Shown piece after piece: positions 13,560 through 29,772 of a stretch of DNA of 35,467 nucleotides (position 1 is the first letter of the stretch; every line of letters begins with the position of its first letter). The notes beneath the pieces were generated by a model that was not told where the DNA came from, did no database searches, and worked only from the letters and a program-made list of their open reading frames with translations. The stretch lies in contig QKYT01000417.1 of the NCBI GenBank assembly GCA_003550305.1, positions 69,360-104,826 of the forward strand. The letters are read 5' to 3'. This DNA comes from Glomus cerebriforme. Its lineage: Eukaryota; Glomeromycota; Glomeromycetes; Glomerales; Glomeraceae. Both the position numbers and the translations under genes were made by a program.

Positions 13560-16500
13560 ATGAATGATAAACAGCAAAACATTCTTAACCTCTTAAAAAA
13601 AAGAAACGAAAATCCATACAATAGACAGCTTGCTGTAATATTTACACAAGAAGGCGTAAATTATTTTCTTGAAATAAATAAAGAAAATAATCAACAACAT
13701 TTTTTATGTTGCCCAAAATACATCAATATCATAGTTGAATTATTTCCTGCCTTAGTTGTTGAAGAAAAGAGTTTCATCGTACTTCGAAATATCCTAAAAA
13801 ACCATCTTTCAATATGCTTCGATTGCGTTGAATCTTTTTATATTAATACTAAAAAATTGTATCAACGGTAAATAAATATGATTAAAAAGTATATTGCTTA
13901 TTTTCGATAATGTGATTAACATATAAATTAATATTTACTATTTTTTATTTTTCTTAGTCATAAATCAATATATATAACAGATATTGAAAATAAAAATATA
14001 GATACCTTCTTTGAAAATCTTGGAGAATGGCAAATAAATCGAATCGTAGCGGCATTGATGAAGATCAAAGAAAAAATTAAGACCGATAGTTCTAATGAAA
14101 TTTTTTTACCAGTTATCTTTGAGTTACTTTTGAACTTCAAATGTCTACAGAATAACAAAATCAATGAACTTTTTATCAATGTTTTGTCAACTTTAAAACA
14201 ACAAGGAAGGTTTTTTAAATTGACAAATAATAGATATATGCCTGGATTATTATTATGTTCTTTACACGAGAATCATGAAGTTAGGAAATGGGCTTGGGTG
14301 TCACTTCAAACCATTAATTGTGAGATAAAAGTTAAAGAATTTAGGGAGGTTGAATATGATATTGTAATGGACGTTATTTTACAAAAGCTTGTAAAGTTTA
14401 ATGATGATAACCAAGACTTTAAATATCCTTTTACTAAAGACATTATAGAATTCTGGAAGGGATTTAGAAGAATTCTTTCCTGTTTAGAAAATAACATTTT
14501 ATGTGATCAATACTTTGTCAAGCCAATTATATATTCTTATTGGAAAAAATGTAATCGTAACCAAGAATCCTTGTTGATCGAATTATTAAAAGCTCTAAAT
14601 ATGCTCTTAGAAAAGCTAAAAGAAGATTTCTGGACAAATTATGAACAATGGAAAATTAAAATTCTTGACATATTTGAATCATCTAGTTTTCAATATCTCA
14701 CAAGGGTACATTCAAAAAAAATGTTTTTATTATCTTGGATTAAATCTTACATAATTTCAGTACTTACTTCAGATAATTTTATAAATATATTAGAAAAAGT
14801 ATTAGATATTCTTATGAAGGAATCTCAAAAATCAGACTGTGATGAAGGATATAGGATCGTTTGTTACGACACGATTTTAGTGATAATTATTCAAACTCTA
14901 TCATCAAATCATGATATTATCTATTATAAATTTTACTTTGATTATTCTTCAAAAAGTTCAAAATTTAAAACGATCTTCGATAATATTACGAGAAATTTTT
15001 CACATGAGGATATTAAAAGGAATGTGCAGAATTTGGGGATATCCGGAATGAAAAAAGAATTACTATATAAACTTAAGGAAGATCAGAAGAGGTGGTCCGC
15101 AAAATATTCAAAGAGACAAGTACGCGTAATTGAAGCTCCTCCGAATGAAGAAAAAAATCAATGGATGTTACGCGTTCAAAAACAAAGAGAAGATAAAGCT
15201 CGTTTAATGCCAAATGTGAACCAGTTTTATAAGAAGATATTATCATTAAATTGTACGGCAAATAGCGAGTTGTCACCAAATTCTTGTCTACATAATTATA
15301 AAGCGATTCCAAACATATTTTTATCAGCCGAGCATTATGTAGAGATTTTTGAACCGTTTCTTATTTTGGAATGTTGGAATAATTTGGTAAATTTAAAAAA
15401 GGTGAATAAAGATATGATGGACATTTTCATAGAAAATGTTTGTATGGTCGATGATTTTATAGAAGTTTCATTCAATTGTGAAAAGTACAATCGGGATCGT
15501 TTTTCGGAAAGTGATCTATTATATATTTATTACGAGCCGTCAGAGAAAGAATGTTTGCAATACGATGTCCAAAATATGGCAATATTCAAAAGTAATAAAT
15601 TATTATTTTACTTGGATGACTCTTCTCATAATGTTCGACGTTTTTTATTTAAAGACAGTAAATGGAAGGTGTATCAAATTATGAGGTTAGTGATAACAAA
15701 TTCAATTGTTTAATAAATATAATTTTTTTTTTTAAAAAAAAAAAGGCAAAATTATCAAACAAAATTCGGATTAGATAATTATTGTTCTTTCCTGTAGTTT
15801 GACATCAATAATTCGAGAATATGCAGCTTTAATTGCTATGTCGAAATTCTCATTAAAAAATCAAATTATTAACCCTCGAATTATTACATCATCACCACCA
15901 CCATCATCGTCGTCATCATCATCATCATCTACTATTCAAAAAATTGAACATTACAAAAAGAACTTTCACGTTAATTATTCGCAAGCGGAAATCATTGAAA
16001 AAATTCTAAATAATGATCGTGGATTTTCGTTAATTAAAGGTCCACCAGGAACTGGAAAATCAGAAATTGTTGTTGGCTTAATTTCTGCTTTAAAAGAAAA
16101 TTCAGATGATCAAGGAACATCTCTCATCTGTGCGCCTAACAATTTAATGGTTAATATATTAGTGAAGAAATTGAAAGCTGGAATTTATGATTCAGCAGGA
16201 AATCTCATTAGGGTTAACATCGTATGCTTAAGTTTAGATTCCGTCACGAATGATACGAAAGATGTGTCTTTGGATTTTTTGGCGGAAAAAATGATGTCAG
16301 AGATAAAAGACAATGAAAAAAAAGATATATCATATTATAAAGGAAAAGTATTAGAAGAAGCAGACGTAATATGTTCCACATTGATCGAAAGTGGACATGA
16401 AATTTTGACAACTATGAACATTAATTTTAGCACGATCATAATTGATAACGCAACCCAAGCAACTGAGCTAAGTTCATTAATACCTTTAAAATATAATCCG

Positions 16501-18325
16501 AAGCGGGCTGTATTAATTGGAGATCCAAATCAATCGACGCCAACAGTCTTATCGAAAATAGCAAGGCAATTCTCTTATGATCAAAGTTTATTTACTCGCA
16601 TACAGAAGAGTTGTCCTTCATTAATTTATATGCTAAAAATTCAATATAGAATGCATAGTGAAATAAGCAAATTTCCCAATCTATTCTTCTACGATTCACT
16701 TATCAAAAATGCTGATAATTTATTAAAAAAACGAAATCAACCATGGTATCGAAATCAATTCTTTTCCCCTTACAGATTTTTTAACGTTGACGGAATAAGA
16801 AAGGGAAAAGATACAAATATGTTGACTTTTAATAACTCTGAAGCAAAAATTATTTCTTTAGCGTGTAAGAGGTTGATTAAGGATTTCCCCCAAGTGAATG
16901 TAAGATAAATTGTGTAATTTAAAAATCATAATTTTGATTTTAGTTTAATTAATTTAATCCTATATCAAAATAAAAAAAAGTTTGAAGGTCGAATTGGCAT
17001 TATCATTCCTGATAAAAGTCAAAAGGTTGATTTTATAAAAGAACTTACAAAAGACACTTTTATTGAATTTGAAATAGATACAGTGGTAAATATATTTTTA
17101 TCATTTTTATCTAAATATATACATATATATATATTTAATAATAATACTTACTTTCATTTATATTTAATAAAAGGATGCATTTCAAAGTCAAGAAAAGGAT
17201 ATCATAATATTATCTTGTTTTTGCGCTACTGAAGGTAAATTATTATAATATTATTATAATATATATATATTTTTTACCTGTTATAAATAATATTTAAATA
17301 TTAAATTTCTTAATTTATATTATAGAGAAAAATGCTGGATTTTTAAGAGATCCAAAAAGGTTAAATGTCGCTCTTACTCGTGCGAAAAGTTCACTATGGA
17401 TTTTTGGTTCAACAAAGACTCTTGTGCAAAATAATGATACCTGGAAAGCATTAATTGAAGATGCCAAAAATCGTAAATGTTATACAGAGGTTTGTCTCGT
17501 AATACAACTTATTATCTAAAGGTTTACATAAAAAAAAAGAATTTAATAATTTTATTTTAACTTTATTAGGCATCCGATAATATGTTTTCTGATGTAGAAG
17601 AAGAAAGTATATCTGAAAAGAACTTGTTTGCGGCAGAGGTAAAAACAGAAAAAAATAATGAACCAAATTATCGATCGATGTCATTACAATCCGGACTTTT
17701 AGTTCGATTTAACGATTCGGTCCCATCTGAAGAATCTCCTTCACTCTCATATTTTAATAATCATGTCTATTATGAACGAAAACCAGTAAATCAGAGGACA
17801 GGGGTTTCAACCGGAAATCAAAACAGGAGACGTTCTCCAATTAGAGTTCATTATCGCGAACAGTTTTCCGATCATCAATATAGTTCACATTATCACGGCA
17901 GAAGAAGCGAATATGACCAAAGAGATCACACTAAATTGCATTATGATAATAGGAGAATTTACGAGCATGATTCATATTCATTGGAAAATCGATTACAATC
18001 TCCAATAAGGAGCTATGATGATGTTGAAAGGAATTTGGGAATTCAAATACACGAATCTAATATAAATGAAGATTATAACGATTGTAATGCGATGGTTATC
18101 GAACGCTCATCATCACCAGAAGAAGATACAAAACATAAAAGGTTTAAAAATGAGAAAAAGATTCATCGCCACGATCGTAAGAGAGATCATAGTCCTCGAA
18201 ATCATACGAAAGATCGTGATGGCCAGGAAAATAATTATTGGGAAAGAAACATTTTATCATCGCAAGATTTCGAGAAATATCATAAAGAATCTTATTTTCG
18301 AGATTTGAAGCAAAGGCAATATTAA
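13560..18325 (+). CDS. Sen1/senataxin-like SF1 helicase, 7 exons, 1407 aa
   Basis: A UPF1-like SF1B helicase; Sen1/senataxin members unwind RNA-DNA hybrids and help transcription termination. Exons: 13560-13867, 13958-15685, 15798-16899, 16981-17085, 17174-17234, 17326-17489, 17570-18325; the frame is continuous. The N-terminal half (1 to about 480) is helical, like the Sen1 N-domain. The segment YVEIFEPFLILECW (about 593-606) is the Sen1/SETX signature preceding the helicase core. Motif I GPPGTGKS (760-767, Lys766); motif II reads IIIDNATQATE, so the usual DEAxQ is DNATQ (Asn896 replaces the catalytic Glu); motif III GDPNQSTPT (920-928); motif IV QYRMHSE (961-967); motif V TVDAFQSQEKD (from 1080); motif VI LNVALTRAK (1114-1122). 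A Ser run (about 710-723) precedes the core. The last 250 residues are low-complexity, rich in Arg, His, Tyr and Ser. Exon 4 uses an acceptor in an A-run without a pyrimidine tract. Shorter than yeast Sen1 (about 2230 aa). Confidence 0.88.
15887..15930 (+). repeat. TCA/CCA/TCG trinucleotide run coding Pro-Ser
   Basis: A run of TCA, CCA and TCG triplets inside helicase exon 3 encodes a Ser-Pro-Ser tract between the N-terminal domain and the ATPase core. It probably forms a flexible linker and is prone to length variation. Confidence 0.7.
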
Positions 18326-21566: not shown

Positions 21567-23799
21567 TCAATCCGCAGTCTCGCAATTAGAGATTCCATCT
21601 CTAAAAACGCTAACGAGACCAACAACAGGTCTTACGTAAACTGCATACAAGACCGATGTGGCGATACTAGCAGATACGGTAATGGTGTTGTATAATGGAT
21701 TAACCACCAATGTACTTACAAGGGTGCTCTTCGAGTAAATTTGTGGTGATTGTGAGTGATTGGTTTGAATCAATGCTCTTTCCTCCTCCCCCTGTTGTGA
21801 TATAATTAGATTCTGATCCTCGCCCTGAGTTATTCTCAATCGAGAAATATTTCCATTTGCTAATAATAATTGTGGATTTTCCCCACTCCTAATAAAAATT
21901 AAATTTTTAAAAAATAATTAGTTTAAAAATAATAAAAAAATCTGTAAACCTCTCTCTCCGCTTACAAAATTCATTGAAATAAGCTTACGCACAACTGTCC
22001 CACAACAGATTTTAGACGAATCAATTCCTCATTTTGTTGATCAATCTTGTTTTCTAAACGTTTAATGGTCTCTTCAAATATTTTACTAACGCTTGTGCTA
22101 TCAAATTCATCTTTTTGAACATTTGCTTTTGATTCTAAACGTTGTATCGTTTCCGCCATACGTTTAGAAAGGTCAATTTGTTGCTGCATAATTTGGTCCA
22201 TTGAATTAAATTTGTTAATTTGACCATTTTGTTCAGCGACTTTAGCCTCAAGTTTTTCTTTAGTATTACTCAAAGTTTTATTCATTTCTTCAAGTTCTTG
22301 CAACTATAAAAGTAAAATAAAATTTAAATAAATTTGAATCAATTTAATCTGATTGAAAGAGAGTAGAAAAAATTAATTATTATTGAACTTACCTTTTTCG
22401 AAACTTGTTCGTTGAGATTGTCATAACCATATTGGTCAGATAATGTTTCTTCATTTTTTCGTTCTCTGTCATCGGCAACATTTGGTTTAATATTATTAGT
22501 TGAAATAGATAGAGGTTCAAAATTTCTTGATTTTTGAATCGTTCTCTTGATTTCATGAGGATCCGATTTGATAATTGAATTAGCAGCATTATTCTGATCG
22601 ACTTTATCTTCTTTCTTATCCTGTTCATCTTTTTGTATCCGGGTTTGATCATCAGATTTATTAGTGATTTCAACATTAAACTCTAATGATGGTTCAATAG
22701 GTGTGACAATTAATTTTGGAGTAGTAGGAGAACCGGAATTATATTCATTCTCAGGTTTATTATAAATTTCTTGATTATAATCTTGATCATCAACTGAACT
22801 TGGTTGAGTGGAAGAATTGGTCGATTGAACGTCATCGTTAAGGGAATCGTCAATAATCACATTAGGTGAATTATTATTATCATTATCAGAAGTAATTGAA
22901 TTATTACGATGAACATTTTGAGGGGATTCAACATAATCTTTGATTAAATCATCACCATTATTATTATTATTATAATTATTATTATTATTATCACTATTTG
23001 AAATTTGTTTATTTTTTAAGGAAGAAGGAGAACCAGAATAAAAAGAATTTTTTGGACTTTTTGGACTATATATAGGTTCATCAGGTTCAAGAAAATTATC
23101 TTCCCATACATTATATGGTTTTGAGGATGATTTATTTTCATCGAAACCTAAAATTTTACCAATGTTAACACTGATACGTTTTCCTTTTTTAGATGATTTA
23201 TCTTTTTCTAAACCATCAGTATTACTATTTTGTCTAGATTTTCTTCCTTTCTTTGAGGTAGTATCAACTTCAGGTTTCTCATCATCATCGGAAAAGAAAA
23301 TAAAACTACGCCTATTTTTTGACGTTCTTCCTTTCTTTGAGGTAGTAACAACTTCAGGTTTCTCATCATCATCGGAAAAGAAAATAAAACTACGCCTATT
23401 TTTTGACGTATCACTGTTAGATGAAGTACGAGAAGTTGGACGTAAATGTTTCTCACTTTCAAAAGTATTATTATTACGTTTATTATGATCCTTATCTTTA
23501 TTAAAGATTCCTGATAGAGAACGAACCAAACCTTCAGAATGATGTTTTTCTTTCTCTTCTTTTTCTTTATTACTATTAAACATGCTTATAAAACTATTAC
23601 GCTTGTTGCGTTTAGAAGAGGAATTTTTTTCTTCTTTGTTTTCTTCAAAGCTAATTTTCTTTGTATCATTAACATAAGAAGAAGCTGAAGAAGGATAATC
23701 TTTTGATGTTTCAGAAGAGTTATCGATTTCTTCCTCGTAAACATCATTATTATTATGATTATTATCATCAACAACATTAGTTTCGTAAGTAGATTCCAT
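21567..23799 (-). CDS. Low-complexity Asn/Asp/Ser-rich protein with C-terminal coiled coil, about 679 aa
   Basis: Function not recognised. Exon 1 is 23799-22393 (469 codons): acidic and polar, with repeated basic-Ser patches (KRNSF, NRRSF) that look like phosphorylation sites, Asn runs, and two tandem copies of a 28-residue unit (SFIFFSDDDEKPEV). Exon 2 starts at 22303 and encodes a heptad-type coiled coil from LQELEEMNK to EELIRLKSVVGQL. The 3' end is uncertain. Donor GTGCGT (exon 2 ending at 21993) with acceptor 21889 keeps the GC-richer frame open to TGA 21569-21567; its end holds a hydrophobic stretch, SASIATSVLYAVYV. The stronger-looking donor GTAAGC (exon 2 ending at 21989) with the same acceptor instead reaches a stop at 21702-21700, and with an acceptor at 21825 it rejoins the preferred frame. 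The preferred frame is chosen for its composition. If correct, the protein may be tail-anchored through the C-terminal hydrophobic segment (inference). Confidence 0.6.
23241..23408 (-). repeat. 84-bp tandem duplication inside the coding exon
   Basis: Two direct copies, 23241-23324 and 23325-23408, are nearly identical at DNA level and keep the reading frame (28 codons each). One visible protein difference is Val versus Asp after KPEV. Near-identity at synonymous sites points to a recent slip or unequal crossover. Confidence 0.85.
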
Positions 23800-26010: not shown

Positions 26011-29000
26011 ATGGTAATTATTCTAAAAGAATTGTTTGAATGGATAACTACTGGAAAAGGATGGAAAATTGGGTTGATGTCATTTTTTATTGCGGTATTG
26101 GATAGTTGTACATGGGTTTACACGGGAGATTCGAGAATTCAGACAAACTTTGATCTAATAGCTTTGTTAATAGGAATAAGTTATTTATTATATACTGAAG
26201 CAGATAGAATGCAATTATCAAGACAAGAATTTCAATGGTTATTTTTGAGATTTTGTAATAAAAAACCACTTCATGCGTATTCTTGTATAATTCTTTTGAT
26301 ATTGTCAACGTTTAACGGATATTTATATTTAAGTTCGATCATTTTTATAATCTTCTGGAAGTTTTTAAGTGATTCTGTACCAGAAAACCTATTCGGAATT
26401 TCTGAAATTAGTTCAAAACTTATTAAAATTCTTCATTATGTGGTTCCACAAATTTTTATGGTTATTTGGTTTAAAATCTTTTTAGAAATATTAGTGACTT
26501 CAAGATCTACTATTGAAATATTATCTTTTGCTATTTATGAAACTTTATTTTACTTTTCATGTCCTTTTTTATTTTTATTTTTAATAATATTTTCAAAAGT
26601 CACTTATGATATATATGTCACACATTATGACGGAAAGCGTTCTCATTATTTTTATTTATCATTTTCATGGAAAATACAAAAATTGTATTGGATGATGATA
26701 TTCGAACTTCTATGTATGATGTTACCAATATGCATACATTGTAGTCGAATGCTATCAGAACGGAATTGGTGTCAAAATTGTGGAAGAACCCATTTTATTA
26801 ATAATTTATCAAATTGGACAAGTGGTCATAAAGTTATTGATGAATTAATTAAAGAATTTCAATTCAAAGCGAATAATGAATTTGAATGTATAGAATGGAT
26901 TCCTTATAATGAATTTGATAATATTAAACAAATTGGTAGAGGTGGTTTTGGTACAGTTTATTCTGCTACATGGAAAAGTGGTCCTTGGACTATGATTGGT
27001 CTAACCGGAAATTTTGGAAAGATTTATAGGTCTGGTAAACAAAATGTTGCTATAAAAAGTCTTGGTTACTCGGATAATATTACAAAAGAATTTTTACATG
27101 AATTAAAAGCTCATATAAAATGTGCTACAACATATTCAAGTGATTTTTTTGCCGTAGTTAGGTGTTATGGTTTAACCCAAGATCCAATCTCAAAAGCATA
27201 TATGATTGTAATGGATTTAGTAGAAAATGGTAGTTTATATCAATATTTAAACAAAAATTTTTCTGTACTTAAATGGAATGAAGATAAATTAAGATTATTG
27301 GTTGAAATATCTAGTGGATTAAAAACAGTTCATGAAGCAGAACTTTTACATCATGATTTTCATACTGGTAATATTTTAATAGGAAAAAATGGTACCGCTT
27401 ATTTAGCAGATTTAGGATTAAGTTGTCCTGCTGATAAACAATCATCCGATTCTGGCGTGTATGGTGTATTACCATTCGTCGCTCCTGAAGTTTTACGCAG
27501 ACATCCATATACTAAAGCTTCTGATGTTTACAGTTTTGGAATGATTATGTGGGTGTTAACTTCTGGTCAAAACCCTTTTTCTTATTGTGATCTTAATAGC
27601 GATTTAGCATTAAGAATAATATCCGGACATGAAAGACCTCCTATTATTGAAGGAATTCCTAAAATATATGTAGATTTAATGAAAAAATGTTGGGATCCTG
27701 ATCCATTAAAAAGACCTTTATCTGTTGATTTAGAAAAGATATTTAAAAAATGGTATTTTAGTGGTGAATTTTATGATGAATTTGCACAAGCTGATGAATT
27801 AAATAAGGATGATATTATAAGAACTATTAAACAATCAAGTCAACTTATTCATAGTTATGAAAGTTATAAAAGTTGTGAAAGCTCAAATCAATCAAGTAAG
27901 TACAATAACAAATATCCAATAACGGCGGATAATCTTAAAAATATATCCTAATCTATCGAACTATGTTATATTATTATTACCCATATACTAAATATAATTT
28001 TCATTGTAGAATCTAATGATGTTGAAAGTAGTTTATTAGATTCAATGCAACAAGATTTATTACTTGATGAAATACCTATTAGTAGTAAGTTTGTTTCTTT
28101 CAAGATCATAAATTTAGGTAAGTGTCTTTGATATTGTATTATATATAAGTAATACAATATAATTTTTTTTGTGTTTAAAGAATCCGAACAATTAGATGGA
28201 AAAAATTTGGTAATAATAATATACATATTTACTAAATAATTTCAAATTATTAAGATCAGAATTGAAATTTTTTTATTATTTTAATTTATACTATTTATAC
28301 TGTATATTATAATAAAGATAAAGAAGACCAACTTATTTATAGTAAATTTGAAGGAGCTGAAAAAGCAAACACAAACCAATTAGATGAGGCGAGTTTAGGT
28401 AAGTTTAAGTCTACAATAATATATGTTGTTAAAATAATTTTATATATTTGCTAAATAATCAGTTTTATATAGATTCAACGCAACTAGAATTAATTCTTAA
28501 CGATGAAATTTCAGGTAAAATGCGATTTTAATTATTTATTTCTTAATTCTTTTTTATTATATTTAAAATTCTTTTAAATTATACACAATAATAGAAGATA
28601 ANGAAAGCAAATTTATTCATAGTAAATTTGAACGCGCGGAAAACCCCAACCAATTAGATGAGGCAAGTTTAGGTAAGTTTAAGTTTATAATAATATATAT
28701 TTTTAAAATAATTTTTATATGTTTGCTAAATAATTAGTTTTATATAGATTCAACACAGCAAGAATTAATTCTTAACGATGAAATTTCAGGTAAAATATGA
28801 TTTTAATTATTTATTTCTTAATTTTTTTCTATTATATTTAAAATTCTTTTAAATTATACACAATAATAGAAGATAAGAAAAGCCAACTTATTAATAGTAA
28901 ATTTGAAGGAGCGGAGAAAACCAACCAATTATATGAGGCAAGTTTAGGTAAGTTAAAGTTTACAATAATATATGTTTTTAAAATAATTTTTGTATATTTG

Positions 29001-29772
29001 CTAAATGATCAGTTTCATATAGATTCAACACAACTAGAATTAATTCTTGATGATGAAATTTCAGGTAAAATGCGATTTTAATTAATAATCCCCTGTCGCA
29101 CTAAGTGTCACTCATGATTGCCTTCAGTCTAATTTTTTGCATGTGATCAGCTAACCGGGAATTTTCATTCACTTATTCCTCAGTCTCATATAGACAGCCG
29201 GGAAATCACTAATTTTATAAGAACTGTTTAAAATGTCTTATAATAACTTAATAATTTGTAGAAAAATAATGTAAAAAAATAGTTAATCATGTAAAGTCAC
29301 ATGTTATTTAATGAGTGACACGCTCCGGGGGATTACCCATTTATTTCATGGGGGGTTAGGAACATCATGGTTTTTTTCCCTTCGGGAAAAAACCATAATA
29401 TTCCTAACCCCCCATGAAATAAATAATACTTATTTCTTGATTTCTTTTTTTATTATATTTAAAATTCTTTTAATTTATATGCAATAATAGAAGATAAAGA
29501 AAGCCAAATTATTCATAGTAAATTTGAAGGAGCAGAGAAAACAAATCAATTAGATGAGACAAGTTTAGGTAAGTTTAAGTTTACAATAATAAAATAATTT
29601 TTTACATTTGCTAAATAATCAGTTTCATATAGATTCAACACAACTAGAATTAATTCTCGACGATGAAATTCCAGGTAAAATGATGTGTTTGTTTATTTAT
29701 TATTATTTTTTATTAACTTTTTAATTTTTGATAATAATAGAAGATGAAGAAAGTCAATCAATCGAAAAATAA
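26011..29772 (+). CDS. Multi-pass membrane TKL kinase with exon-array tail, about 835 aa
   Basis: Exon 1 (26011-27895, 628 codons) begins with a hydrophobic region predicted to span the membrane about six or seven times (near 19-37, 46-61, 90-117, 139-162, 168-197, 225-242). A juxtamembrane NWCQNCGR Cys pair (254, 257) and NWTSG follow, then a kinase domain: GRGGFG (309-314), VAIK Lys349, HHD (447-449, in place of HRD), Asn454, DLG (467-469), APE (491-493), CWDPDPLKRP (560-569). The catalytic Lys and both Asp are kept, so activity is likely. Splice donor TCA-A|GTAAGT at 27896 leads into the repeat exons: 28010-28117, 28318-28398, 28473-28514, 28595-28672, 28748-28789, 28870-28947, 29023-29064, 29491-29568, 29633-29674, 29741-29772 (TAA). 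All join in phase 1 and the frame closes at 836 codons including the stop. Reading through the first intron instead ends at TAA 27949-27951 and gives a 646-aa tail-less form. A role as a receptor-like or organelle-membrane kinase is inference. Confidence 0.85.
28181..28210 (+). pseudogene. Relic B-type exon in the tail array
   Basis: After an acceptor-like GTTTAAAG, this stretch reads ESEQLDGKNL when joined in phase 1, matching DSTQLE of exon B. Its only donor (TTG|GTAATA at 28211) leaves phase 0, which cannot join the next exon. Skipping it (28117 to 28318) keeps the frame. It appears to be a decayed first copy of exon B. Confidence 0.5.
29086..29335. mobile_element. MITE-like insertion in an intron of the tail array
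   Basis: Ends TAATCCCC (29086-29093) and GGGGATTA (29328-29335) are inverted. The inner inverted match GTGTCACTCAT near 29106-29116 pairs with ATGAGTGACAC near 29311-29321. The equivalent intron in module 2 is 80 nt; this one is 426 nt, so the extra 346 bases match this element plus the adjoining palindrome. No coding capacity. Confidence 0.65.
29339..29424. repeat. 86-bp near-perfect palindrome with a 3-nt TTC loop
   Basis: Outer arms of 24 bp (29339-29362 with 29401-29424) pair exactly, followed by a 4x4 internal mismatch and an inner stem (29367-29380 with 29384-29396, one extra T) closing on CCC-TTC-GGG. It abuts the MITE-like element within the same intron and would form a long hairpin in RNA or cruciform DNA. 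Confidence 0.85.

Follow-up and report, generated by a model that had tools for sequence, protein, structure and literature searches.

Repeats in titin, collagen, and nebulin have grown through duplication of phase-matched exons. The gene described here shares this with them, but its unit is an exon pair, placed 3′ in the kinase gene of a fungus. A second close parallel comes from schistosomes. Excerpts of one account of schistosome micro-exon genes (MEGs) describe small symmetric exons whose combinations leave the frame unchanged (PMC4350168). In the MEGs the coding region consists mostly of very small exons of this kind, and they are reported to undergo alternative splicing. As in the MEGs, the small symmetric exons of the kinase gene keep the frame on combination. 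In contrast to the MEGs, they form only the tail of a kinase and are predicted exons of 42 to 81 nt. Tandem duplication of symmetric exons is already known, and the kinase gene is a new example of it. Judged by titles and the beginnings of abstracts, the literature on tandem exon duplication in fungi, including arbuscular mycorrhizal fungi, yielded no fungal exon array. Literature on kinase splicing or exon skipping in Rhizophagus irregularis, judged by titles, yielded no fungal kinase isoforms. Kinases are a highly expanded gene family in this species, according to an excerpt of PMC8647823. With a frame-neutral exon module a non-catalytic tail can change quickly by simple means, and the locus suits a clean test of copy number and exon use across strains or nuclei.

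The gene lies at positions 26011–29772 on the forward strand of the window, the whole 35,467-nt stretch of Glomus cerebriforme DNA analysed. Its model has 11 exons (Table 1) with 2475 coding nucleotides, equal to 824 aa and a stop. The frame closes from the kinase ATG to the terminal stop, as the original prediction had it. GT–AG borders are present at 10 of 10 introns; the acceptor is AAG at exon A1 and TAG at the other nine. Because all nine internal exons begin and end in phase 1, an added exon pair leaves the frame unbroken. The uniform phase had been predicted correctly, whereas the proposed exon sizes (81/78 and 42 nt) fail for exon 2, which has 75 nt. The accompanying claim that exons can be skipped or gained without a frame change agrees with the model, in which every one of the 512 possible sets of internal exons is computed to stay open, giving 61 predicted lengths from 638 to 824 aa. 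In the same predicted model, each extra exon pair would lengthen the C-terminal tail by 40–41 residues. Retention of a single intron adds 3–21 residues and then a stop for nine of the ten introns; retained intron 7 gives 89 further residues up to the normal stop. Exon 2 has no intron at the site matching the A–B intron of the modules, and the match score of its DNA with spliced A3+B3 was equalled by none of 500 shuffles.

Table 1 Exons of the kinase gene and the element inserted among them, in window coordinates
Feature	Position	Strand	Basis and remarks
Exon 1	26011..27895	+	ORF, hydropathy, exon model; hydrophobic N-terminal region and kinase domain; 3′ end phase 1
Exon 2	28010..28084	+	75 nt, phase 1-1, B-like unit
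Exon A1	28318..28398	+	81 nt
Exon B1	28473..28514	+	42 nt
Exon A2	28595..28672	+	78 nt, N at 28602
Exon B2	28748..28789	+	42 nt
Exon A3	28870..28947	+	78 nt
Exon B3	29023..29064	+	42 nt
Repetitive element, ~345 bp	29085..29429	.	Genome matches; within B3–A4 intron
Exon A4	29491..29568	+	78 nt
Exon B4	29633..29674	+	42 nt
Terminal exon A5	29741..29772	+	32 nt, stop codon inside

The tail exons had been described as four A+B pairs and a stop-bearing A copy with a period of about 275 bp. A repeat search recovers these units, but the period holds for the first three copies and not for the fourth, where the last module spacing is 610/621. Tandem Repeats Finder reports positions 28309–29084 with period 275, 2.8 copies, and 88% match. 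The repeat search finds a 125-nt block containing B in four copies, spaced 275, 275, and 610; A blocks turn up at four sites. The period breaks at the fourth copy because a repetitive element has inserted in the B3–A4 intron, which measures 426 nt instead of 80. The 3′ part of this element is a hairpin with 41-nt arms (29339–29424). It has at least 74 match rows in the genome, its own place and secondary hairpin matches counted (40 of 112 candidates scored), and the best copy is 97% identical across nearly the whole query. The borders of the element were judged from the genome matches and from four other copies (four of nine loci; plus strand, matches of more than 150 bases).

Similarity between copies extends through the introns. 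Identity is 84–88% for A exons, 88–93% for B exons, 89–95% for A–B introns, and 82–95% for the first three B–A introns; it falls to 68–74% for the last B–A intron, before the terminal exon. A1 differs by 6 nt plus a 3-nt acceptor shift, so that exons vary in length by multiples of three only. Lengths of the module introns vary by 1, 2, and 10 nt, and this contrast speaks for coding use of the exons. The homologous exons are adjacent, are accompanied by homologous introns, and have symmetric phases, as expected of tandem exon duplication. Tandem duplication of an exon pair, introns included, has lengthened the 3′ end of the kinase gene, probably via unequal crossing-over or replication slippage. 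Two further candidate copies were rejected. Short matches hinted at a decayed extra module in intron 2 (28085–28317), but 180 of 500 shuffles score as high. The last part of exon 1 resembles A, but weakly, with 3 of 500 shuffles reaching the score. Elsewhere in the genome (112.5 Mb, 1117 contigs) no tail modules were found, all five matches at E ≤1 lying inside the kinase gene (8 candidates scored).

Exon 1 supplies the catalytic part. Its product matches PK_Tyr_Ser-Thr (PF07714) with 141.2 bits against a Pfam cut-off of 23.1 (E 4.8e-41), and solved relatives include the EGFR, MLT, and TAK1 kinases. C-x2-C and W-C-x2-C motifs are present, and a 19-residue hydropathy scan shows about four distinct hydrophobic regions. 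The N-terminus is hydrophobic and probably membrane-bound. Against the genome, the N-terminal region gave five weak matches besides its own (142 of 173 candidates scored); a tblastn search of viral contigs found no relatives. Among the 196 residues of the predicted tail, 54 are D/E versus 15 K/R. The kinase, the hydrophobic N-terminal part, and the acidity of the predicted tail are as foreseen, and attachment to a membrane is probable.

The best protein match is an R. irregularis protein, P0001 (794 aa), which is 61% identical across 97% of the query. P0001 and two other R. irregularis proteins, P0003 and P0004, resemble the product described here: a related hydrophobic N-terminus and kinase are followed by a repeated tail of similar units. 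P0001 differs in that its units are fewer and diverge more, it has its own repeats, and its tail is less acidic (170 residues, 33 D/E versus 21 K/R); splice junctions of the R. irregularis genes were deduced from the proteins. Aligned locally, the two tails score 171, compared with a shuffle mean of 59 and a maximum of 109 in 2000, and two-sequence BLASTP gives E 1e-12. A database-wide search with the P0001 tail returned P0001, P0003, and P0004 only. Parts of the kinase domain are missing from P0003 and P0004, so not every R. irregularis model can be relied on. The tails of the two species are unequal in length, as are those of the deposited R. irregularis gene models, some of them apparently unreliable. 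Tail length thus seems to have changed between species, and change between species is the source of tail variation that these comparisons support.

We consider it likely that this is a kinase gene whose 3′ end was extended by duplicated exon pairs with their introns, giving a frame-neutral acidic tail that may serve in docking. The tail is probably flexible. The structure predicted for P0001 is of poor quality (mean pLDDT 40.7), and values of about 20–34 per block in its tail therefore say little about disorder. A short hydrophobic–acidic peptide resembling LELILNDE recurs in the tail and could act as a multivalent docking site, in which case module copy number would set binding strength. The peptide may resemble SUMO-interacting or LxLxL motifs. 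A strict form of the motif occurs three times in the kinase tail versus a shuffle mean of 0.56, and four times in P0001 versus 0.32; because the copies are not independent, these counts are a lead at most.

An extended tail need not mean variable splicing. All modules could be constitutive, with one tail length per species and no isoform choice. This is compatible with the explanation preferred above, and we put its chances at about even. The uniform splice sites fit it, and annotation noise could account for the differences among P0001, P0003, and P0004. Some of those differences, however, speak against it. The peptide ESMQL is present in P0003 and absent from P0001 and P0004. Use of an acceptor 15 nt further downstream would account for its loss, and all four B exons of the G. 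cerebriforme gene carry an AG at the matching position. P0004 also lacks a 13-residue stretch of P0001. Isoform choice by splicing is possible, and the design for variable tails proposed originally, with differences between strains or nuclei, is likewise no more than a possibility.

A more radical alternative is that the working protein stops at 27951 (646 aa) and that the downstream repeats are a decaying duplication of former 3′ exons, spliced rarely or never. We regard this as unlikely. Left unspliced, exon 1 does read through 18 more codons to a stop at 27949–27951, and the tail is weakly matched in a database-wide search, with P0001 alone among the matches listed (E 0.12; 7990 candidates scored). 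Exons and introns also diverge alike: between copies, A–B introns differ by 7.5%, B–A introns by 12.9%, A by 13.4%, and B by 8.7%, and introns that diverge no faster than exons count against coding use. On the other hand, the four modules retain their frame and splice sites and show an excess of synonymous change. Pooled between-copy ps is 0.28 versus pn of 0.09. The minimal substitutions between copies number 12 synonymous and 18 nonsynonymous (n = 30), against an expected synonymous share of 18–30%. Over eight mutation models omega is 0.33–0.65 with P from 0.004 to 0.16, the significance depending on the model: P is <0.05 in five of the eight and 0.06–0.16 in three with strong transition bias. 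That none of the 30 substitutions creates a stop is unremarkable (P 0.07–0.29; 0.086 in a separate computation).

The R. irregularis proteins also speak against an ending at 27951. Another of them, P0002, reads past the exon-1 donor, which implies a donor at the matching point, and its read-through peptide differs from that of the kinase gene here, as expected of an intron. Models of R. irregularis splice into a tail. P0003 and P0004 end ...NDETGKIYFYFE, resembling read-through of the B donor here (GKMRF, GKI). With omega below 1 and with the R. irregularis orthologue bearing a repeated tail of similar kind, the predicted tail is probably translated, and the A and B blocks are probably used as exons. 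Least credible, to the point of being highly improbable, is that the module copy number is an assembly artefact: the ambiguous base at 28602 may reflect reads shared between copies, but aligned parts of the copies are 5–18% different and one intron carries the 345-bp insert, so the array is not one stretch duplicated by assembly. It is possible that further near-identical modules were collapsed in the assembly.

We compared the gene with other kinase loci of the genome. At least 146 kinase matches were found (144 of 2137 candidates scored) and 50 loci were taken. Ten with only TGA stops in the matched stretch were left out, leaving 40 including the target, two of which (L041 and L068) overlap. 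Flanks were unequal, 1.5 kb or about 3 kb per locus. Arrays of period ≥40 occur at three other loci among the 40. At L061 and L066 they consist of AT-rich simple repeats that lie about 1 kb or more past the kinase frame; at L074 a coding repeat of 42 bp lies about 2 kb past it. Repeated exons were not seen at these three loci, a comparison that covers 40 of at least 146 loci and about 1.5–3 kb at each.

A short 3′ exon of comparable size occurs at other kinases. In 6 of the 39 other loci (L043, L062, L066, L072, L073, and L075) the kinase exon is followed by a single phase 1-1 exon of 42–54 nt that begins with [DE]S; unlike the exons described here, it is present in one copy each. The scan pattern required a [DE]S start and an in-phase GTA 36–59 nt on, and the 11 of 40 loci that lack the catalytic-loop pattern were scored as misses. 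It gave eight sense matches (two in the target) and no antisense match in 151,462 bases. This was not an independent test, because the pattern was written after L066 had been seen. At L018, L040, L071, and L074 an acceptor and the motif are present, but either a stop falls in frame or the donor is missing; at L074 the combination is probably due to chance. At L040 and L071 the in-frame stop falls within the [DE]S-type 3′ exon after the kinase, which suggests that this family may lose tail exons and not only gain them.

The duplicated unit may derive from this common short phase-1 3′ exon. Peptide similarity is not significant, so this origin is a lead only: 62 of 1000 shuffles reach the score of B against the other 3′ exons, and 474 of 1000 do so when the first two residues are left out. 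A wider proposal, which we hold to be rather doubtful, is that a small phase-1 3′ exon shared by the kinases of these fungi was amplified in this lineage, together with the adjoining exon, to give a tunable array of docking peptides, whose number and splicing would differ between species, strains, and perhaps nuclei.

The ten TGA-only kinase matches (L017, L019, L020, L022, L023, L025, L028, and L033–L035) lie on contigs C36, C980, C726, C765, C1049, C1007, and C133. L020, the sole one examined, has long open frames with a kinase under code 4. These loci probably belong to a Mollicutes-related endobacterium in the assembly. Such endobacteria are reported, in an excerpt of PMC10507103, to carry kinases acquired from fungal hosts. 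Elsewhere in the window, an 84-bp direct duplication with 98% match (23241–23409) lies inside a minus-strand ORF (22339–23799) and encodes an in-frame 28-residue repeat. A SEN1-like helicase gene is present in pieces at 14055–16908 (SEN1_N, AAA_11, and AAA_12). It contains a CAT microsatellite (15887–15929), where the frame reads a serine run.
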